64,000 bases of DNA from Microbispora sp. H11081. Its GTDB lineage: Bacteria > Actinomycetota > Actinomycetes > Streptosporangiales > Streptosporangiaceae. Below, in pieces: positions 27,025 to 37,204 of the stretch. Within the stretch, counting starts at the first letter, position 1, and every line of letters starts with the position of its first letter. The notes below the pieces were generated by a model. It did not search any database and was not told the DNA's origin. It was given only the letters and a program-made list of their open reading frames with translations. The position numbers and the translations under genes are program-made. The DNA lies in the NCBI RefSeq assembly GCF_012999535.1, contig NZ_JABBWV010000008.1, forward strand, positions 186,001-250,000, written 5' to 3'.

Positions 27025-27801
27025 TTAATGGCGGGATTTGTCGTCGTTCTCCGCATGCGGGACGGCGAGCACCTGTGGCGCCGCCTGGCGCATACGGGTG
27101 CGCAGCCAGAGCAGATGGACGGCCGTCTCGGGGGCACAGTGGCGGGTGAGATCGAGCAGGTCGTCGTCCCTGAGCCCGCGTGCCGCCTGCGCGAGCAGGC
27201 CCCAGGACAGGTCGCACTCCGTCGCGAGGAGATACAGCCCGTGCAGGTCCCGCAGCAGCGTGAGGCCGCCGCCGTCCCCGCCGCCCCGCCCACGTGTCAG
27301 CGGACGCCGTGCCGTTCCAGGGTCCGCGTCCTCCACGCTCGCCCGCTCCCGTTCCGCCGCCGCGCGAACGACCCGCTGGAGATCGGCCGTCTCCAGACCC
27401 GCGGCGTCGAATCCTCCACCTTCGAAACCGCCGGAGTCGAAACCCCCTGGATCGAACCCATGGAGATCGAAGCCGCGGGCGTCGAAACCGTGGGCGCCGA
27501 GGCCCCCGGCGTCGAAACTCGCGGTCTCCAGACCCGGCGCCTCCAGGCCCGGCGGCATCGGCCCCGCCGTCCTCGGCTCGGCCCCGGCCGCCCGCGGGTC
27601 GCGCGCTCCGCCGGAGCGGTAGCGCCGCAGGAATGGCTTCAGCCGCTCGGCGTGGTCGCGGCACTGCGCGGCCAGCCGCTCGCAGACGCCGCCCAGGTCG
27701 GGCTCGCGGGGATGGCCGCGCCACAGGGCGCGGAATCCCGACGACAGCTCGTGCTGCGTGAGGGAGAGCGTCTCCATGTAGCGCGCCAGACGTTCGCTCA
27801 C
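27025..27801 (-). CDS. Unknown protein with central GFD pentads, partner of a molybdoenzyme homologue
   Basis: 258 residues from the GTG at 27801 (another in-frame GTG at 27813). The N-terminal 60 residues are helical (RLARYMETLSLTQHELSSGF, then CERLAAQCRDHAERLKPFL). Residues 85-141 are pentads with GF[DE] or GL[ED] at each repeat; they differ from true pentapeptide repeats because the position two before Phe is not always small. The C-terminal 90 residues are helical with Leu/Trp-rich DLHGLYLLATECDLSWGLL and LDLTRHCAPETAVHLLWL. It lies about 110 bp downstream of the molybdopterin oxidoreductase gene on the same strand. Function is not recognised. Confidence 0.65.
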   Translation of the reverse strand: MSERLARYMETLSLTQHELSSGFRALWRGHPREPDLGGVCERLAAQCRDHAERLKPFLRRYRSGGARDPRAAGAEPRTAGPMPPGLEAPGLETASFDAGGLGAHGFDARGFDLHGFDPGGFDSGGFEGGGFDAAGLETADLQRVVRAAAERERASVEDADPGTARRPLTRGRGGGDGGGLTLLRDLHGLYLLATECDLSWGLLAQAARGLRDDDLLDLTRHCAPETAVHLLWLRTRMRQAAPQVLAVPHAENDDKSRH

Positions 27802-27914: not shown

Positions 27915-30455
27915 TCAGAACTCCTCGTACCGCTCCGGCGCCTCCCCTCCTCCCGTGGCGGCCGCCACCTCGGGCCGCGCGGTCATACCGCGGCCGATGC
28001 GCAGGGCGGCGGAGCACAGGCCCTCCTCCACGGAGGTGTCCCCGCGCCGCCCGGCCTTCACCAGCCGGACCGCCACGGCGCCGCGCAGCGGCCTGCGGGA
28101 CACCGCGTCCCAGGCGGTGAGCGTGAGCTCCTCCGCCGCCCGTGTCACGGCCTCGCCCTGCCCGTCGAGCAGCAGGACCACCGCTCCGGGACGTACGCCC
28201 GACAGGTGCGCGACTGCCTCCAGCACGCCCAGGGGCGACTCGACCCGGACGAGGTCGCCGTCCTCGACGCCGAGCACGGCGGCGTCGCCGGGATGGACCT
28301 CGAGGAACGGCTCGGGCGCCGCGGCGTCGCCGAGCCGCGCCAGCCGGCCGGGAAAGGGGTGCAGCGCGCGGCGGGTGGTGAGGACCAGGGGATACTCGTC
28401 GTCGGCCACCTCGGGCGACGGCTCGAAGTCGGCGGCGTGGAGGAAGGCCCGTCCTCCCGGGTCCTCGGCGCGGTACCGCTCCTCGCCGTACTCGGCCCCC
28501 GTGGCGAGGTCGGCCCCGAACGTCTGGCAGTGCCCGGGCCCGGTGGCGAAGTGCCCCCCGGCGTACAGGCGCTCGACGCCGTGGGTGCCGGACGGCGCGC
28601 AGGGCCACTGGATGCCGCCGGCCCGCAGCCGCTCGTAGCTGATCCCGGTGTGGTCGCACGGGCGGCCCCTGGTGCACGCCTTCCACGCCTCGAACGCCGA
28701 CTCCGCGTCCGTCCAGCCCACGAGCGGCCTGCCGTCCCGGTCGCGCAGGCCCATCCGCCGCGCGTAGTCGAGCAGGATGTCGAGGTCCGCCCTGGCCTCC
28801 CCCGGTGGCTCGACCGCCTTCTCGCACAGGTGCACCGTGCGGTCGGCGCCGGTGACGGTGCCGGTCTTCTCGCCCCAGGCCGCCGCCGGGAGCACCACGT
28901 CGGCCAGCCGCGCGGTCTCGGTCAGGTACGGATCCTGGACGACGACGAACAGGTCGTCGCGGCCGAGGACCCGGTCGAGCCCGGGCATCGTGGCGGCCGG
29001 GTCGGACGCGGTGATCCACAGCAGGCCGAGCGACCCCTCCTCGGCGTACCTGAGGATCTGACCGGCGTGCGTGGCAGGCCCCCAGTGCGGGATGACGGCG
29101 GGGTCGACGTTCCACAGGTCCGCCAGTTCGCGCACGTGCCCGTCGTCGGCCCAGTTGCGCAGTCCGGGCAGGTCAGCGGCCGAGCCCGCCTCCAGCGCGT
29201 CGCACCCGGGCCCGCCGAACTGGAACAGCCCCGCTCCCGGACGGCCGAGCATGCCGCGCAGCAGGTGGACGTTGTTGACCTGGCAGGCCGCTTCGGTCGC
29301 CTGGTTGGAGCCCAGGATGGCCTGGCCCACCGTCGACACCAGCCGTTCTGCCGCGCCCAGGATCTCGGCGGCCTGTTCGATGAGCGCGACCGGCACTCCG
29401 CAGATCTCCGCGGCCCGCTTGGCCGGATAGGCCTCGACGACGCGCCACAGCCGTTCGAACCCGACGGTGTGCGCGGCGACGTACGCCGCGTCGTGCCAGC
29501 CGCCCGCGATCAGTTCGTGCAGCAGTCCGTTGAGCAGCGCCACGTTGGTGCCGGGACGTACGGCGAGGTGGACGTCCGCCTCCCCGGCCGCCGCCGTCCC
29601 CTCGGGCCCGATCGCGATCATCGCGGGGGGCGCGGGCCCGGACCGCCGGTCGAGCATCCGCTCCCACAGCACGGGATGGGAGGCGGCGCAGTCGTGCCCC
29701 CACAGCGCGAGCGCGTCGCAGTGGTCCACGTCGGTGTAGGAGCCCGGCTGCCCGTCGGCGCCGAAGCTCGCCGCGAGCGCGGCCGCCGCGGCCGCCGCGC
29801 CCCAGCGGGTGTCGCCGTCCATGTGGGGGGTGCCGATCCCCGCCTTGCCGATGACGGCGAGGGTGTAGTGCTCCTCCAGGAACAGGCGCGTGCCCGTGTG
29901 GAAGGCGAGGCGGCCCCAGCCGCCCGGGCGGGCGAGGAGCTCCCTCGACCTCGCCGCCACGCGGTCCATCGCGGTCTCCCACGTGGCCTCGACCAGCCGC
30001 CCGTCCTCGCGCGCCCCGCCTTCCCGAACCAGAGGGCGGGTCAGGCGTTCCGCGCGCGGCTGCCAGGCGTGCCACTCCCGGGGGTCGAGCCTGCCGTGGT
30101 TGACGCGGTCGCCGGCCCGGCCGCGTACGCCGGCGACGCGGCCGTCGCGCACCGCCAGGTCGAGCGCGTTGTCGCCCCAGCCCGCCGCGGAGACGGCGCC
30201 GGCCCAGTGCTCGACCTGCTGCTCGGTGAGGCCCTCCTCCAGGACGACGTCCACGCGCACCGGCCAGGGGCTGCCGAGACGGATGACCGGGGGGAGCGCG
30301 TCCCGCATGTGGCTCGGCAGGGCCGCCGCGAGCCGCTCCACCGCGTCAGGAGGCCCGTACGGCGTGCGCCCCCTCCTGGGATCGGCGATCCGGTCCAGCA
30401 CCTGGCACCTCCGCGGCGGTGATGTGTGAACGTCGCGTCCCGTACCCGGTGCCAT
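27915..30455 (-). CDS. Molybdopterin oxidoreductase homologue lacking the N-terminal Fe-S cysteines
   Basis: 846 residues from the ATG at 30455, preceded by AGGGAAG. The DMSO-reductase-type body is well kept: DRVNHGRLDP, RLTRPLVREGG, IGKAGIGTPHMDGDTRWG, QATEAACQVNNVHLLRGMLG, VLPAAAWGEKTGTVTGADRT and a C-terminal MGD-binding beta domain. But the region before DLAVRDGRVAGVRGRAGDR (about residues 84-98), where relatives carry the C-x2-C-x3-C cluster ligands, reads WAGAVSAAGWGDN, with no Cys. The usual active-site ECGAD-like segment is also altered (LEAGSAAD). It may lack the [4Fe-4S] cluster or be catalytically changed. Closest to assimilatory nitrate reductase/formate dehydrogenase-like family members. 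Confidence 0.82.
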   Translation of the reverse strand: MAPGTGRDVHTSPPRRCQVLDRIADPRRGRTPYGPPDAVERLAAALPSHMRDALPPVIRLGSPWPVRVDVVLEEGLTEQQVEHWAGAVSAAGWGDNALDLAVRDGRVAGVRGRAGDRVNHGRLDPREWHAWQPRAERLTRPLVREGGAREDGRLVEATWETAMDRVAARSRELLARPGGWGRLAFHTGTRLFLEEHYTLAVIGKAGIGTPHMDGDTRWGAAAAAAALAASFGADGQPGSYTDVDHCDALALWGHDCAASHPVLWERMLDRRSGPAPPAMIAIGPEGTAAAGEADVHLAVRPGTNVALLNGLLHELIAGGWHDAAYVAAHTVGFERLWRVVEAYPAKRAAEICGVPVALIEQAAEILGAAERLVSTVGQAILGSNQATEAACQVNNVHLLRGMLGRPGAGLFQFGGPGCDALEAGSAADLPGLRNWADDGHVRELADLWNVDPAVIPHWGPATHAGQILRYAEEGSLGLLWITASDPAATMPGLDRVLGRDDLFVVVQDPYLTETARLADVVLPAAAWGEKTGTVTGADRTVHLCEKAVEPPGEARADLDILLDYARRMGLRDRDGRPLVGWTDAESAFEAWKACTRGRPCDHTGISYERLRAGGIQWPCAPSGTHGVERLYAGGHFATGPGHCQTFGADLATGAEYGEERYRAEDPGGRAFLHAADFEPSPEVADDEYPLVLTTRRALHPFPGRLARLGDAAAPEPFLEVHPGDAAVLGVEDGDLVRVESPLGVLEAVAHLSGVRPGAVVLLLDGQGEAVTRAAEELTLTAWDAVSRRPLRGAVAVRLVKAGRRGDTSVEEGLCSAALRIGRGMTARPEVAAATGGGEAPERYEEF

Positions 30456-30598: not shown

Positions 30599-33532
30599 GT
30601 GGCCCGCGTATTCGCGTGTGGGGTGCGGATGGATGGACGCGCGGCCGGGCCGGTCGTCTCGGGCGCTTCCGCGCCGCTGGTCGGACGGCAGGACGCGCTG
30701 GCCGCGCTGAGAGGCGCCACGGCCGCGAGCCGGCGGGACGGATTCCAGTTCGTCGCGCTGGTCGGCGAGCCGGGCGCGGGCAAGACGCGGCTGCTCGGCG
30801 AGCTGATGGCGATGGCGAGCCGGGACGGATTCGCCGCGCTGTGGGGACGCGCCGCGGAGTACGAGCAGATGCTGCCCTTCAGCGCCCTGGTGGACGCGCT
30901 CGACGACCACCTCGACGCCAACCGCGACGAGGTCACGAGGGCCGTGGGGACGGGGCAGGCCGCCCTGCTGTCCGGCGTCTTCCCCGGGCTGGCCTCCGGC
31001 GGCGGCCCTGCCGGCGACGAGCCCTCCCTCGCCGACGACCGCAGCGGCCTGGCCCGCTACCGGCTCTACCGGGCCCTGCGTCACCTCATGGGCGCGCTGG
31101 CCGGGGACTCCGGCGTCCTGCTGGTCCTCGACGACGTCCACTGGGCCGACGACGGCACGATGGAGTTCCTCGACCACGTGGTGCGTCATCCGCCCGCGGG
31201 CCCTGTGCTTATGGCCGTGGCCTACCGTCCGGCCCAGGCCGCCCCGCGCGTCGCCAGGCTCGCCCCGGCGGCCGGCCCGCGCGGGCACGAGGTCGTGGTC
31301 GGCCCGCTCAGCGCGGCGGAGGTCAGGCAGTTCCTCGGCCCGGGCGTCAGCAGGGGGCGGGGCACGGCACTGTACGAGGCCAGCGGAGGCAACCCTTTCT
31401 ACCTTGAGGCGCTGGCCAGGATGGGCGGCACCGACGTGGCGGAACTGCCGCCGACCATGCGCGCGGCGCTCCAGGTCGAGCTGGGCGACCTGTCCCCCGG
31501 AGCGCTGCTGGTGGCCCAGGCGGCCGCCGTGACCGCCGACGAGTTCGAACCGGCCGTCGCCGCCGTGGCCGCCGAGGTGTCGGCGCAGGCCACGCTCGCC
31601 GCGCTGGACGAACTGGTCGAGCGCGACATCGTCCGCAGCGTGGGCGGGCGGTTCCGATTCCGTCATCCCCTCGTGCGCCGCGCGGTCTACGAGTCCGCCG
31701 CGGCGGGCTGGCGCCTGGGCGCGCACGCGCGGATCGCCGCCCACCTCGCCGGGCTGGGGGCTCCCGCGACGGTGCAGGCCCACCACGTGGAGCACTCGGG
31801 GTCGTTCGGCGACCGGCGGGCGGTGGAGGTGCTGGTGGAGGCGGCCCGCGCGGTCACCGCGCACGCTCCGGCCACGTCGGCGCACTGGCTGCAGGCGGCG
31901 CTGCGGCTCATGCCCGACGACGCCGCGGCCAGGGAGGACCGGCTCGCCCTGATGATGGAGCTGAGCTGGGCGCAGGGCATCAGCGGCAGACTGGCCGAGG
32001 GCCGTGACACCGCCCGCGAGCTGCTGCGCAGGCTCCCTGAGGACGACTATTCCCGCCGTGGCCCGGCGGCCCGCGTGTGCGCGCTGATGGAGCGCCAGCT
32101 CGACCGCCCGCACGAGGCGCGGGCGCTGCTGCTCGACGAGCTGAGCCGCATGCCGAACCCGCGGGCCGCCTCCGCGGTGCCGCTGCGGATGCGCCTGGTC
32201 GCCGAGAGCATGCTGCGGGTGGACTTCCGGGCGGCGCAGGCCGTGCTCGACCTGATGCCCGACAACGCCGACGACTGGGAGCCCGGCCTCGCGGTCGCGG
32301 TCGCGGCGCTGCGCCCGATGCCCGCCCTGGCCGCCCGCCGTCTGGACGACGCGCTGCGCTACGCCGAGATCGCCGGCAAGCTGCTGGCGGACGCGCCCGA
32401 CGAGCACCTGTCGGAGTGGCTCGACGCCATCGCCTGGCTGTGCTGGGCCGAGTCCTACCTCGGCCGGTACGGCGAGGCGCTGCGCTACTTCGACCGGGTC
32501 GCGGCCGTGGCCAGGTCGACGGGGCAGAGCTACATCCTGACCAACCTCCTGGCGGGCCGGGCCAAGACGCTGGTGGCGATGGGCCGCCTGGCGGAGGCGG
32601 GGGCCACCGCCGAGGAGTCCGTCGAGGGCGCGCGGCTGCTCGACTCCGGCCAGCAACTCGTCTTCGCGCTCACCCAGACCTGCCTGGTCGAGTCGTGGAG
32701 CGGCGACGACGACGCGGCGCTGCGGGCCGGCGAGGAGGCCGTGCGCCTCGGGGTCGGGGCCGGCGAGACCTGGGAGGCCTCGGCCCGCTACGCGCGCGGG
32801 GTGGCCCTGGTCAACGCGGGCAGGTGCGCCGAGGGCGTCGCGGCGGTGCTGGACGCGTGCAACGGGTTCGAGTCGCCGCGCCTTGACCTGGGGACGCTGC
32901 TCCAGGCGTGCGAGACGCTCGCGTACGCGGACGCCTCCCTTGAGACGACCGCGGGAAAGCCTGGGCGCGCGGCGAAGTGGGCGGCGCTCGCCGCGCGGCT
33001 GGAGGACCCGCGCCTGCCGGCGTACTGCGGCTTCGCCGCGCTCTCCCGCGCGCACGCGCTGTCCGGGGAGGACCCGGTCGCGGCGGCGGCCGCCGCCGAG
33101 GAGGCGGCCGGTCAGCTCAGGGTGGGCGAGCGGCGGCTCGACTCGGGCCGGGCGCTGCTCACCGCCGGGCAGGCGCGTCTGCGCACGCCGGGCGGCCGCG
33201 CCCGCGCCAGGGAGCACCTGCGGGCGGCGGCCGAGATCTTCGACTCGTGCGGCGCCCGCGCGCTCAAGGCCCGCACCGAGCGGGAGCTTCGCCGCCTCGG
33301 CGTACGGGTGGGCGGCGGCGCGACCACCCCCTCGGACGGCGACGCGCCCCCGCTGGGGTTGTCGCCCAGGGAGCTGGAGGTGGCGCTGCTCGTCGCCGAA
33401 GGGCTGACGAACCAGCAGGTCGCGGAGCGGCTCTTCCTCAGCGTCCGCACGGTGGAGACCCATCTGTCGCGGATCTTCGCCAAGCTGGGGGTCACCTCGC
33501 GCGTCGGCGTGGCGACCGCCCTGAAGCGGTGA
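30599..33532 (+). CDS. LAL-type LuxR family regulator (AAA ATPase plus TPR plus HTH)
   Basis: Up to 977 residues from a GTG at 30599; the ATG at 30629 is an equally good start, since the AAGGG before the GTG abuts it. The N-terminal ATPase carries Walker A LVGEPGAGKTRLL and Walker B LLVLDDVHWADD. A long helical, TPR-like middle follows. The C-terminal LuxR helix-turn-helix is LSPRELEVALLVAEGLTNQQ, then VAERLFLSVRTVETHLSRIF. Such regulators usually activate nearby genes; the hydrolase and GMC oxidoreductase follow at once on the same strand. Confidence 0.9.
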   Translation: MARVFACGVRMDGRAAGPVVSGASAPLVGRQDALAALRGATAASRRDGFQFVALVGEPGAGKTRLLGELMAMASRDGFAALWGRAAEYEQMLPFSALVDALDDHLDANRDEVTRAVGTGQAALLSGVFPGLASGGGPAGDEPSLADDRSGLARYRLYRALRHLMGALAGDSGVLLVLDDVHWADDGTMEFLDHVVRHPPAGPVLMAVAYRPAQAAPRVARLAPAAGPRGHEVVVGPLSAAEVRQFLGPGVSRGRGTALYEASGGNPFYLEALARMGGTDVAELPPTMRAALQVELGDLSPGALLVAQAAAVTADEFEPAVAAVAAEVSAQATLAALDELVERDIVRSVGGRFRFRHPLVRRAVYESAAAGWRLGAHARIAAHLAGLGAPATVQAHHVEHSGSFGDRRAVEVLVEAARAVTAHAPATSAHWLQAALRLMPDDAAAREDRLALMMELSWAQGISGRLAEGRDTARELLRRLPEDDYSRRGPAARVCALMERQLDRPHEARALLLDELSRMPNPRAASAVPLRMRLVAESMLRVDFRAAQAVLDLMPDNADDWEPGLAVAVAALRPMPALAARRLDDALRYAEIAGKLLADAPDEHLSEWLDAIAWLCWAESYLGRYGEALRYFDRVAAVARSTGQSYILTNLLAGRAKTLVAMGRLAEAGATAEESVEGARLLDSGQQLVFALTQTCLVESWSGDDDAALRAGEEAVRLGVGAGETWEASARYARGVALVNAGRCAEGVAAVLDACNGFESPRLDLGTLLQACETLAYADASLETTAGKPGRAAKWAALAARLEDPRLPAYCGFAALSRAHALSGEDPVAAAAAAEEAAGQLRVGERRLDSGRALLTAGQARLRTPGGRARAREHLRAAAEIFDSCGARALKARTERELRRLGVRVGGGATTPSDGDAPPLGLSPRELEVALLVAEGLTNQQVAERLFLSVRTVETHLSRIFAKLGVTSRVGVATALKR

Positions 33533-33613
33533 TTTCCGGCAAGTACGGGTTTTCCACGATGCCACCGGTATGGGTGGGCCTGCGATCGTATCTGCCAGCA
33601 GAAAGGCGAACGC

Positions 33614-34732
33614 ATGGGACACCGTATACCCCGGTTCACGCACGACGGTGTGGGTAAGGCCGAGGTCACGGTCCATGCGTTCGCCACCGACGACGAGCTG
33701 GGGTTGCAGCTCACCCGGTTCCGCCGGGACGACGCGCCGGCGCTGGGGGCGCCGGACGTCGTGCTGCTCGTGCACGGCCTGAGCTCGTCGAGCGACATGT
33801 TCGTCATGCCGGAGCACACGAACCTCGTCCGGTTCCTGCACGACAACGGGTTCTGCGACGTGTGGGCGCTGGACTTCCGGATGAGCAACAGGTTTCCGTA
33901 CACCATGGAGACCCGTAGGGACACCCTGGACGACATCGCCCAGTACGACCACCCGGCAGCACTGCGCGAGATCCGCCGCCACGTGGGGGCGCGGCGGATC
34001 CACGTGGTGGCCCACTGCCTGGGGTCGATGACCTTCAATATGAGCCTGTTCTCCGGGGCCGTACGCGGGATCGCCAGCGTGGTCGCCAACAGCGTCGCGC
34101 TGACGCCCCGGGTCCACCCCTGGGCCCGGCTCAAGCTCGCCCTCGGGCCCGCGCTGCTGGAGTACGGCGCGGGCCTGTCCTACCTGGACCCCAGGTTTCG
34201 GGACGCGCCGCCGCTGACGCGGCGGTGGCTGCTGGCCCGCGCCGTCTCCTTCCTCCATCCCGAGTGCCGGGAGGCCGCGTGCCACATGCAGAGCTTCATG
34301 TGGGGCAGCGGCAGGCCCGCGATGTACCGGCACCGCAACCTGGCACGGAGAACGCACGTGCACGAGCGGCTCGCCGACCTCAACGGCGCCTGCGACCTGC
34401 ACTACTACCGGCACGTGCGGAAGATGGTGGCCGCCGGGCGGGCGGTGAAGTCCGGCGCGGGCGACCCGCGGTACGCCGCCCTGCCGGACGACTACCTGGC
34501 CGGCGCGGCCGGCGTGGACACGCCGATCCTGTTCCTGACCGGCGACCGCAACCACGTCTTCACCGACTCCAACATCGTCTGCCACCGCGTGCTGTCGAAG
34601 GCGGCGCCGGGGCTGCACGAGCTGCGGGTGCTGCGCGGCTACGGGCACATCGACCCCCTGATAGGGGCGAACGCGCACCGGGACGTCTACCCGCACATTC
34701 TCGACTTCATGAAGCGACACAGCGGTCGCTGA
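33614..34732 (+). CDS. Alpha/beta hydrolase with a Cys nucleophile
   Basis: 372 residues after an AAAGG ribosome site. The fold is indicated by VVLLVHGLSSSSDMF (oxyanion strand), the nucleophile elbow VVAHCLGSMTF with Cys at position 135 instead of Ser, and candidate Asp (LTGDRNHVFTD) and His (GYGHIDPLIG). A Cys elbow occurs in dienelactone-hydrolase-like enzymes and, as I recall, in hydrolase domains linked to cholesterol-oxidase-type GMC proteins. It is 21 bp upstream of such a GMC gene, so joint action on one lipid or sterol-like substrate is inferred. Confidence 0.8.
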   Translation: MGHRIPRFTHDGVGKAEVTVHAFATDDELGLQLTRFRRDDAPALGAPDVVLLVHGLSSSSDMFVMPEHTNLVRFLHDNGFCDVWALDFRMSNRFPYTMETRRDTLDDIAQYDHPAALREIRRHVGARRIHVVAHCLGSMTFNMSLFSGAVRGIASVVANSVALTPRVHPWARLKLALGPALLEYGAGLSYLDPRFRDAPPLTRRWLLARAVSFLHPECREAACHMQSFMWGSGRPAMYRHRNLARRTHVHERLADLNGACDLHYYRHVRKMVAAGRAVKSGAGDPRYAALPDDYLAGAAGVDTPILFLTGDRNHVFTDSNIVCHRVLSKAAPGLHELRVLRGYGHIDPLIGANAHRDVYPHILDFMKRHSGR

Positions 34733-34753
34733 AGCGGCACTGAGAGATCACCT

Positions 34754-37204
34754 ATGGAACATGTCGACGCGGTCGTGGTCGGTTCGGGTTTCGGCGGCGC
34801 CGTCGCCGCCTACCGTCTCGCCGAGGCGGGACTGTCCGTGGTCGTCCTGGAGCGGGGCAGGGCGTACGCGCCGGGGGACTTCCCGCGCGGCCCGGTGCAG
34901 CTCGGGCGTGCCTTCTGGGACCCCGCCGAGGGCCTGTACGGGATGTACGACATCTGGAGCTTCTCCGACTGCGACTCCGTGGTGTCCAGCGGCCTCGGCG
35001 GCGGCTCGCTCGTCTACGCCAACGTCATGATGCGCAAGGACGAGGACTGGTTCGTCCACGAGCAGGCGCTCCCCGGCGGCGGCTACGAGTCGTGGCCGGT
35101 GACCAGGGCCGACCTCGATCCGCACTACGACGCGGTCGAGCGCATGATCGGCGTGGCGCCGTACCCGCTGGGCCGTCCCGGCTTCGACGACACGTTGAAG
35201 ACCATCGCCATGCGGGACGCGGCGGCCGAGCTGGGGCTCGACTGGCGGCTCCCGCCGCTGGCCGTCAGCTTCGCGCCGTCGCCGGACGAGGAGCCCCGCC
35301 AGGGCGTGCCCGTCGCCGCCGCCGCGTACGGCAACCTGCACGGCGTGCCGCGCAGGACGTGCAGGTTGTGCGGCGAGTGCGACATCGGCTGCAACGACGG
35401 CGCGAAGAACAGCCTCGACCACACCTACCTGTCCGCCGCCCGGCGTCACGGCGCGGACCTGCGCCCGCTGCACGAGGTGCGCCGCGTCCGGCCGCGTGTC
35501 GGCGGCGGGTACGACGTGGAGTACGTCGAGCACCTGCCGCGCGGGGACGACCCGGGCGGGCGCGGCGACGGGCCGCCGCGACGGACGGGCCCGCACACCA
35601 TCAGCTGCGAGCGGCTCGTCCTGGGCGCGGGCGCGTACGGCACGTCGTACCTGCTGCTGAAGAACCGGGCCGCATTCCCCGGCCTCAGCGCGGCCCTCGG
35701 CACGCGCTTCTGCGGCAACGGCGACATGCTCGCGTTCCTGCTGAGAGCCACCGACCGGAGCAGGACGCGGCCCATCCGGGCGAGCCGGGGACCGGTCGTC
35801 ACCAGCGCGATCCGGCTCGACGACGGTCCGGACGGGCGCGGCGCCTACATCGAGGACGGCGGTTATCCCGAGTTCGTCGACTACCTGGCCGAGGCCGCGG
35901 CCGTGCGGCCGGGCCGGATCGCGCGGTTCCTGCTGCGGCGGCTGCGCAACATCGTCACCCACGACGCCAACCTGTCGGCGGAGATCGCCGACCTGATCGG
36001 CCGGGGCGAGCTGTCGGGCAGTTCGCTGCCGCTGCTCGGCATGGGCCGCGACGTCCCCGACGGGAGGCTGCGCCTGCGCGACGGCCGCCTCGACGTGGAC
36101 TGGCCGGCCGAGACGAGCGAGGACTACTTCGAGCGGGTCCGCGCGATCATGCGCAAGATCGGCGACGTCCTCGGCGCGGAGTACGCCGACAGCCCGCCGT
36201 GGTGGCGCAAGCGGGTCATGACCGTGCACCCGCTGGGCGGCGCGCCGATGGGTCTCCATCCTGGCGAGGGGGTGTGCGACGCGTACGGGGAGGTCTTCGG
36301 GTTCCCCGGGTTGTACGTCGCGGACGGCGCGGCCCTTCCCGGGCCGGTCGGCGCCAACCCGTCGCTGACGATCGCCGCGCTGGCCGACCGCATGTGCACC
36401 CGGCTGCTGGAGACCCGCGCGTCGGTCGCCGCGCCCCTGGCGGCCCCGATCGGGGCGCGGGCCGTGCCGGTGGGCGCGGTGGCGCGGCCGGCGGCGAGCT
36501 CCCCCGGCGCGCCGTCCGCCGCCGCGGACGGCCCGCGCGCGCTCGCGGCGGCGCCGCCGGACGAGCCGAGCGTGTTCGAGGACCGCACCTCGCTGTGGTT
36601 CGTGGAGGAGATGCGGGGGCTCCTGCTGCCGGCCCCGCCCGGCCGCGCCGCTCGTGGAGGCGCCGCCCGCGGAAGCGCGGCCCCCTGGGGTGCGGCCGGA
36701 GGCTTCCCGTTCGCCTTCCGCCTCACGATCACGATCGACGACGTCGAACGGTTCCTCACCGAACCCGATCACGAGGCCAGAGCGGAGGGCTGGATCGAGG
36801 CCGACCCGTGCGGGGGCAGACGACCCCTCGCCCGGGGGTCGTTCAACCTGTTCGTCCCCGGGGAGCGGGCCGGGCAGCGGCACATGCGCTACCGCCTGCA
36901 CTTCTACGACGCCGACGGCCGCCCCCGCACGCTGGCCGGGCACAAGGAGATCCAGCCGGGCGCGCCGGCCCGCCTGTGGCTGGACACCTCCACCCTGCAC
37001 GCCCGCCTGCTGGAGGGACACGTCGAGGAGGACGGGGACGACCGTGCGGCCGTGGTCGCCGCGGGGGCGTTGCGCATCCTGCCGTCCGACCTCGTGCGGA
37101 TGCTCACGACCTTCCGTACGGCGGGCCCGGACGGCGCGGCGGCGGTGGCCCGCTTCTGCCGCTTCTTCCTCGGCGAGCTGTGGGACGTCTACGGCCCGGG
37201 CTGA
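34754..37204 (+). CDS. GMC-family (cholesterol oxidase-like) flavoprotein with extra C-terminal domain
   Basis: 816 residues. The FAD site is VVGSGFGGAVAAYRLAEAG, followed by SGLGGGSLVYANVMM, a Cys-rich CRLCGECDIGCNDGAKNS loop typical of the cholesterol oxidase branch, and the C-terminal active site VHPLGGAPMG with GANPSLTIAALADR. After residue about 560 comes a 60-residue Ala/Pro linker and a 200-residue beta-rich domain beginning SLWFVEEMRGLL and containing HMRYRLHFYDADGRPRTLAG. It should oxidise an alcohol or sterol with oxygen. Its 3' end overlaps the convergent ligD-like gene by 16 bp. Confidence 0.85.
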   Translation: MEHVDAVVVGSGFGGAVAAYRLAEAGLSVVVLERGRAYAPGDFPRGPVQLGRAFWDPAEGLYGMYDIWSFSDCDSVVSSGLGGGSLVYANVMMRKDEDWFVHEQALPGGGYESWPVTRADLDPHYDAVERMIGVAPYPLGRPGFDDTLKTIAMRDAAAELGLDWRLPPLAVSFAPSPDEEPRQGVPVAAAAYGNLHGVPRRTCRLCGECDIGCNDGAKNSLDHTYLSAARRHGADLRPLHEVRRVRPRVGGGYDVEYVEHLPRGDDPGGRGDGPPRRTGPHTISCERLVLGAGAYGTSYLLLKNRAAFPGLSAALGTRFCGNGDMLAFLLRATDRSRTRPIRASRGPVVTSAIRLDDGPDGRGAYIEDGGYPEFVDYLAEAAAVRPGRIARFLLRRLRNIVTHDANLSAEIADLIGRGELSGSSLPLLGMGRDVPDGRLRLRDGRLDVDWPAETSEDYFERVRAIMRKIGDVLGAEYADSPPWWRKRVMTVHPLGGAPMGLHPGEGVCDAYGEVFGFPGLYVADGAALPGPVGANPSLTIAALADRMCTRLLETRASVAAPLAAPIGARAVPVGAVARPAASSPGAPSAAADGPRALAAAPPDEPSVFEDRTSLWFVEEMRGLLLPAPPGRAARGGAARGSAAPWGAAGGFPFAFRLTITIDDVERFLTEPDHEARAEGWIEADPCGGRRPLARGSFNLFVPGERAGQRHMRYRLHFYDADGRPRTLAGHKEIQPGAPARLWLDTSTLHARLLEGHVEEDGDDRAAVVAAGALRILPSDLVRMLTTFRTAGPDGAAAVARFCRFFLGELWDVYGPG

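Follow-up and report, generated by a model that had tools for sequence, protein, structure and literature searches.

The 64,000-nucleotide stretch of Microbispora sp. H11081 analysed here (contig NZ_JABBWV010000008.1, positions 186,001 to 250,000; "the window") contains, at 27915-30455 on the reverse strand, a gene whose product is a member of an uncharacterised MopB (molybdopterin oxidoreductase) family. The reading we favour, with moderate confidence and on the basis of sequence comparison, is that the window protein is a cofactor-free MopB pseudoenzyme, working with a ferritin-like partner encoded directly downstream. The ligands of the N-terminal iron-sulfur (Fe-S) cluster, the Mo ligand and the segments presumed to bind the pterin are all missing or degenerate, in a protein which, as judged from its model, retains the MopB fold and is under purifying selection.

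Cofactor-binding sites of the window protein

The open reading frame (ORF) is uninterrupted from the ATG at 30455 to the stop codon at 27915-27917 and codes for 846 amino acids; the absence of frameshifts had already been pointed out in the first-pass annotation of this DNA. Two Pfam domains, Molybdopterin (PF00384, E 6.7e-41) and Molydop_binding (PF01568, E 3.1e-11), together with the fold, place the protein in the MopB superfamily. Molybdop_Fe4S4 is not matched by Pfam in the window protein; it is matched in both relatives with three N-terminal Cys which were scanned. Among NCBIfam profiles, Fdh-alpha, NasA and NasC match best, and the protein scores under the cut-off for all 25 families among the matches listed (27 matched), these three, NapA, NuoG and QrcB included. 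The AlphaFold2 (AF2) model has a predicted local distance difference test (pLDDT) score of 80.0 and a predicted template modelling (pTM) score of 0.83; confidence falls at residues 697-713, where a loop has been lost. Compared with D. desulfuricans NapA, the best solved relative by sequence, the model gives Z 37.5 (root-mean-square deviation, rmsd, 2.8 over 680 residues, 29% identity); Z is 38.5 over 538 residues for a Methanospirillum formate dehydrogenase chain.

None of the four ligands of the N-terminal cluster (C-x2-C-x3-C...C) is present. The first three positions are occupied by Ser89, Gly92 and Asn96, in the segment SAAGWGDN, and the fourth by Asp124; the lack of Cys in the C-x2-C-x3-C segment, described in the first-pass annotation, is confirmed by the orthologues. 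The segment of the fourth ligand, GRLDPRE, aligns with GRLGPKG in three-Cys relatives and with G-x-L-C-x-K-G in outgroups, the conserved Lys being replaced by Arg. Two trivial explanations were considered, and the observation survives both. A sequencing error or frameshift is ruled out, because orthologues from independent assemblies are Cys-less too. Displacement of the Cys to another place is also rejected: among the 12 Cys of the protein, the closest to the former site are at residues 17 and 246, and a segment with four Cys, described below, is found also in members which keep the N-terminal ones. The Cys expected in an "ECGAD" segment, whose absence had been counted as a further ligand loss, was misread as a ligand: the column contains C in 11, T in 8 and A in 3 of the 22 three-Cys relatives and, not being conserved as Cys, is uninformative.

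The Mo-ligand site is also changed. The column which holds Cys in D. desulfuricans NapA holds Gly219 in the window protein (GDTRWG, against NTRLC in relatives), and none of Cys, selenocysteine, Ser or Asp is there to act as Mo ligand. Three motifs conserved in relatives, NGQPTAQNTRE (presumably pterin-binding), YHFHTRTKTGR and FHYGYWD, all of which we take to contact the pterin, are lost or degenerate: the first is replaced by GG--PGCDALE and the other two loops are gone. The earlier description of the pterin-binding segments and C-terminal beta domain as well kept, and of the enzyme as otherwise intact, has therefore to be abandoned.

A second intact copy was looked for in the same genome; the next best match is only 38% identical and belongs to the four-Cys outgroup type, with CCC at the N-terminal site and the Mo-ligand Cys. 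Loss of the molybdenum cofactor (Moco) supply is unlikely, as judged from two homologues with intact ligand motifs in the genome (L002, L003) and not from a search for Moco biosynthesis genes.

Table 1. Features of the window protein and its partner gene (positions in the window)
Feature	Position	Strand	Basis or remark
Putative MopB-fold pseudoenzyme, 846 aa	27915..30455	-	ATG start at 30455; Pfam, alignment, AF2 model
Former Fe-S ligand segment SAAGWGDN, aa 89-96: Cys1 to Ser89, Cys2 to Gly92, Cys3 to Asn96	30168..30191	-	Alignments
Former fourth-ligand and conserved-Lys segment GRLDPRE, aa 121-127	30075..30095	-	Alignment
Former Mo-ligand Cys position, now Gly219 (GDTRWG; NTRLC in relatives)	29799..29801	-	Alignment
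Degenerate segment aa 414-424, GG--PGCDALE against NGQPTAQNTRE	29184..29216	-	Alignment
Segment with C594, C600, C619, C643	28527..28676	-	Alignment; kept in 22/22 of the window's clade
Site of lost YHFHTRTKTGR loop, aa 695-705	28341..28373	-	Alignment; model confidence low at 697-713
Site of lost FHYGYWD loop, aa 761-769	28149..28175	-	Alignment
Partner gene: predicted ferritin-like four-helix bundle, with Gly/Phe/Asp-rich repeat insert here	27025..27801	-	Start at 27801 inferred; profile; fold of Planotetraspora relative

Ligand groups in the family

Sequences were collected from the genome itself, 150 genomes of the same order (30 of 50 matches fetched), 44 contig-database loci, plasmids (14 of 536 records fetched) and 396 genomes of the phylum. 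The contig-database scan used peptide patterns of the window protein, so that distant members are under-sampled. Left out before counting were 14 loci duplicated under a named record, the partial loci L007, L113 and L119, and matches under 590 bits. The aligned set comprises 99 sequences, 94 family members and 5 outgroups, and the maximum-likelihood tree, built by FastTree, was rooted on the outgroups. Two members, L081 and L093, have no N-terminal data; the other 92 fall into three ligand groups.

Group i (three-Cys, 22 members) keeps C-x2-C-x3-C; in all 22 the fourth position is Gly and the Mo-ligand Cys is present. It includes Hymenobacter, a Chitinophagaceae bin, Deinococcus, Halomonas, Modicisalibacter, Methylobacterium, Noviherbaspirillum, Nitrospira and Nitrosospira bins, planctomycete bins, a Staphylococcus plasmid and five actinobacteria. 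Group ii (Cys-less, 48 members) consists entirely of Actinomycetota: the three Cys are replaced by S/A/T, H (46 of 48) and D (48 of 48), the conserved Lys and an Asp following it are found in all 48, and the Mo-ligand Cys in 47. Group iii, the window's clade, is formed by 14 Microbispora, 6 Planotetraspora (both genera of Streptosporangiaceae) and two other relatives of that family (L020, L024). Its 22 members show S, G/H/Q and D/E/N at the three Cys positions and never the conserved Lys; 4 have the Mo-ligand Cys, the others G (13) or, in one case each, Q, D, S, W or a gap. Outside the window's clade, the Mo-ligand Cys is also missing (RLG) from L063, an actinobacterial metagenome-assembled genome whose pterin motifs are nearly intact.

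The members of group iii form a single clade within group ii (local support 1.0); support for the joint Cys-less clade is 0.956. The change from three-Cys to Cys-less takes one step by Fitch count, the two Fe-S losses given by Dollo count being an artefact of L093 with its missing N-terminus. For the Mo-ligand Cys, the Dollo count, which allows no regain, gives four losses in group iii plus one in L063; by Fitch count there are four changes over the tree as a whole, the one in L063 among them.

The order of the losses may be read from intermediate members. L048 and three Microbispora sequences (L044, L017, L054) keep the Mo-ligand Cys, with YHFHTRTKTGR and FHYGYWD already gone: if the Cys was never regained, the C-terminal loops would have been lost first and the Mo ligand later. 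In groups i and ii, 227 columns are conserved at 95% or more; of these, 53 have been lost from the majority of group iii sequences. The lost columns concentrate at 150-200 (8 of 25), 300-350 (5 of 9) and 650-750 (19 of 29, reference numbering), clustering near the Mo ligand and the loops of the C-terminal domain.

Between groups i and ii, at thresholds of 85% and 80%, only three columns switch from one fixed residue to another, all in the former Fe-S site: Cys2 to His (46 of 48), Cys3 to Asp (48 of 48) and the Gly that follows the conserved Lys to Asp (48 of 48); Cys1 to Ser (38 of 48) falls just under the threshold. A switch confined in this way would not be what random decay gives. Tentatively, and with more doubt than confidence, the Fe-S site of group ii may be seen as rebuilt, perhaps into a novel site that serves a Mo enzyme as mononuclear metal centre or proton relay, the window's clade having then become a cofactor-free scaffold for the ferritin-like subunit.

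The partner gene

A gene recognised by its profile lies directly downstream of the Mo homologue on the same strand (largest gap 148 bases), or is fused to it, in 90 of the 94 family members; the profile does not find it in L064, L067, L087 and L118, nor in any of the five outgroups. Among the loci bearing it, the partner of L071 is cut by the locus end, that of L093 is split over two ORFs, and in six (L066, L069, L073, L075, L076, L083) Mo homologue and partner form one ORF. A Cys-less clade accompanied by the same neighbour in other genomes, as the first-pass annotation had envisaged, is thus found. Of the 150 same-order genomes, the partner profile matches 57, including all 49 with the Mo homologue (E <= 1e-100). 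The other eight are of different kinds: in G035 and G104 the partner is intact and the Mo gene reduced to an N-terminal remnant, G007 and G043 have fragments of that gene, no trace of it was seen in G012 and G013 within the stretch fetched, and G018 and G129 are weak partial partner matches. The loci of G104 and G035 (L133 and L134), from one genus, have nearly identical partners, with the remnant directly upstream.

No family scores above cut-off for the partner in Pfam (four partner proteins) or NCBIfam (two), and profiles of solved structures give 12 weak matches, the best (E 0.0006) to a designed coiled-coil. The AF2 model of a Planotetraspora partner, devoid of the repeat insert, has a pLDDT of 92.2 and resembles apobacterioferritin (VIA Z 17.4, rmsd 3.2 over 142 residues), where Z values of helical bundles need care, since up to about 13 they may reflect the common arrangement only; by Foldseek the best E is 0.0068, none being at 0.001 or below. 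The predicted four-helix bundle would liken the partner to bacterioferritin and ferritin. ExxH, the di-iron motif of ferritins, is not conserved in the partner helices: among 30 aligned partners, 4 have it at one helix column and 10 at a column of the loop joining helices 2 and 3.

In the window, the Gly/Phe/Asp-rich repeat (27422-27524, reverse strand, 15-bp period) is inserted between helices of the partner; the Microbispora repeat shows a weak likeness to a decapeptide-repeat model, below its cut-off, and the partner ORF varies in length among other Microbispora. The distant three-Cys member L087 (5986-8412), on a Staphylococcus saprophyticus plasmid, has a hypothetical gene directly upstream. 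In plasmid records, family members are often labelled "nitrate reductase"; some neighbours of the plasmid loci L082-L095 are four-helix bundle copper-binding proteins, HPP family proteins and FdhD. On the other side of the window gene (30599-37204, forward strand), a divergent LuxR-type AAA regulator, an alpha/beta hydrolase and a GMC oxidoreductase are encoded. All named Planotetraspora loci (6 of 6) and 8 of the 11 named Microbispora loci have this set next to the gene; it is not found there in L044, L046 and L054.

Proposed course of events and alternatives

Sequence comparison gives the following course. The ancestor had three N-terminal Cys, with Gly already at the fourth position, and a dedicated partner predicted to be a four-helix bundle. 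In Actinomycetota the three Cys were exchanged for Ser/Ala/Thr, His and Asp, and the Mo-ligand Cys remained. The Streptosporangiaceae clade to which Microbispora and Planotetraspora belong lost its C-terminal pterin-binding loops and afterwards, repeatedly, the Mo-ligand Cys (four times if never regained). The window protein would no longer bind either the Mo-bis-pterin cofactor or the N-terminal cluster, nor catalyse the ancestral reaction. We infer that its present role is that of a scaffold or regulator, complexed with the ferritin-like partner, which would carry the remaining function; it is probably now a non-catalytic scaffold.

Continued constraint is shown by substitution patterns. The ratios of nonsynonymous to synonymous substitution rates (dN/dS) are pairwise medians on homologous columns, from non-independent pairs: the core scores 0.190 in Microbispora (12 sequences, 66 pairs) and 0.149 in Planotetraspora; four Cys-less groups keeping the Mo site span 0.166-0.242, and neither value exceeds their range. 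Three-Cys Hymenobacter has 0.124. The highest of these values, 0.242, belongs to the Planobispora/Streptosporangium group, in which the Mo site is kept: the Microbispora core, being lower, is accordingly not relaxed. No ORF is broken in the 12 Microbispora sequences, and no internal stop is found in the 11 same-genus genomes of the 150-genome set (own genome counted); a simple neutral simulation, with 2000 runs at each distance, left 117 without a stop at 0.05 substitutions per site, 5 at 0.1 and none at 0.17. These values argue against slow decay, a reading in which the Mo homologue is dying and its retention in Microbispora is residual, and which we regard as unlikely, in spite of the same-order genomes with a broken or deleted Mo gene beside the partner gene, of the relaxed C-terminal pterin domain of Microbispora (0.518, against 0.190 for the core) and of five Planotetraspora proteins without most of that domain.

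A cluster-free but catalytic protein, in which Mo-bis-pterin is bound with no protein ligand and electrons pass directly to a partner, or a non-redox reaction takes place, seems quite improbable for the window protein. It would suit the retained fold, the Molydop_binding domain still detected and the Mo-ligand Cys of the surrounding Cys-less group, and it has precedents in AioA, with no amino-acid Mo ligand, and DorA, with no N-terminal cluster (PMC10100899, accessible part); yet the three pterin-contacting motifs are gone as well, the conserved Lys is Arg, and the residues at the Mo-ligand site vary within the clade, as expected of relaxed constraint. Of the two outcomes offered by the first-pass annotation, a cluster-free variant or a non-catalytic role, the second is the better supported for the window protein, because the Mo ligand and pterin-binding loops are also lost; the first fits better the surrounding actinobacterial group of 48, as its Fe-S Cys are gone but the Mo-ligand Cys is present in 47.

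The segment with C594, C600, C619 and C643 is a family signature, kept though the catalytic ligands are gone, and is a possible metal site. That it holds a metal centre replacing the N-terminal cluster is highly improbable: it is complete in 82 of the 94 family members and in the whole window's clade, with at most one of the four Cys in each of the five outgroups, but its presence in members keeping the N-terminal C-x2-C-x3-C means that the site is not a relocated one, and 12 members lack one to three of the Cys in the alignment.

Several observations weigh against the favoured reading of a cofactor-free pseudoenzyme. Molydop_binding scores 43.7 bits in the window protein, above the Pfam cut-off of 26.8; Cys persists at the Mo-ligand position in 4 of the 22 members of the clade; the C-terminal region of Planotetraspora is mostly deleted, yet its remaining columns are not relaxed (dN/dS 0.144); the broken or deleted Mo genes of some related genomes leave room for slow decay; and the evidence for the complex consists of neighbourhood, fusion and co-occurrence. 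Finally, loss of the protein ligand alone is no proof of Mo loss, since AioA coordinates Mo with no amino-acid ligand, as stated in the accessible part of PMC10100899.

Among known systems, NapA, NasA/NasC and FdhF (periplasmic or assimilatory nitrate reductases and cytoplasmic formate dehydrogenases) share the fold; unlike them, the window protein is without Fe-S ligands, Mo-ligand Cys and pterin loops, and it stays far under the equivalog cut-offs (321 bits against 666 for Fdh-alpha). DorA and BisC, of the DMSO reductase type, are active enzymes, and BisC, too, is among those devoid of an N-terminal cluster. The bisC_fam score is 77.7 bits (cut-off 1017.6). According to the accessible part of PMC10100899, DorA has no N-terminal cluster, like the window protein, and DorA and BisC have Ser as Mo ligand, where the window protein has Gly. 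From the same part of that source, the iodate reductase IdrA has a reported [3Fe-4S] cluster and, as the arsenite oxidase AioA, no amino-acid Mo ligand. The base of the family described here is likewise without the fourth Cys; unlike AioA and IdrA, the window protein has lost the three cluster Cys too (arsenite_ox_L 107.8 against 359 bits).

A further likeness is to MopB subunits devoid of Moco, a kind into which the window protein would fit by its MopB fold, lost Mo site and selection. The NCBIfam models of the NuoG, QrcB (titled "molybdopterin-binding-like") and FwdB types score 68.7, 55 and 32.8 bits, far under their cut-offs (470, 440 and 327.8); ActB and FhcB are likened by description, and not scored as models. 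To our knowledge, a ferritin-like partner is not known from Nqo3/NuoG, ActB, FhcB or QrcB complexes. Nqo3, ActB and FhcB are described, in the accessible part of PMC10100899, as MopB subunits without Mo/W-bis(pyranopterin guanine dinucleotide), being parts of complexes; they have the MopB fold in common with the window protein, which would likewise lack the Mo cofactor. No description of the window's clade, of the stepwise loss or of the partner was found in the literature searched, which mostly did not extend to subscription papers; none of the M. smegmatis nitrate-reductase homologues tested in PMC7816997, in its accessible part, could be linked by sequence to the window's family.

Cofactor-free MopB proteins, such as Nqo3 of complex I, ActB of alternative complex III and FhcB, have so far been known mainly as finished products. 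Here a widespread two-gene system, made of a Mo homologue often annotated as "nitrate reductase" and its partner, is brought to light, and living members at each stage, along with the constant partner, suggest an order of losses: the fourth Cys, the other three, the pterin loops, the Mo ligand and finally, in certain genomes, the protein as a whole. The group of 48 sequences would represent predicted Mo proteins in which a His/Asp set replaces the Fe-S ligands, and the route from redox enzyme to scaffold becomes a testable question within one family.

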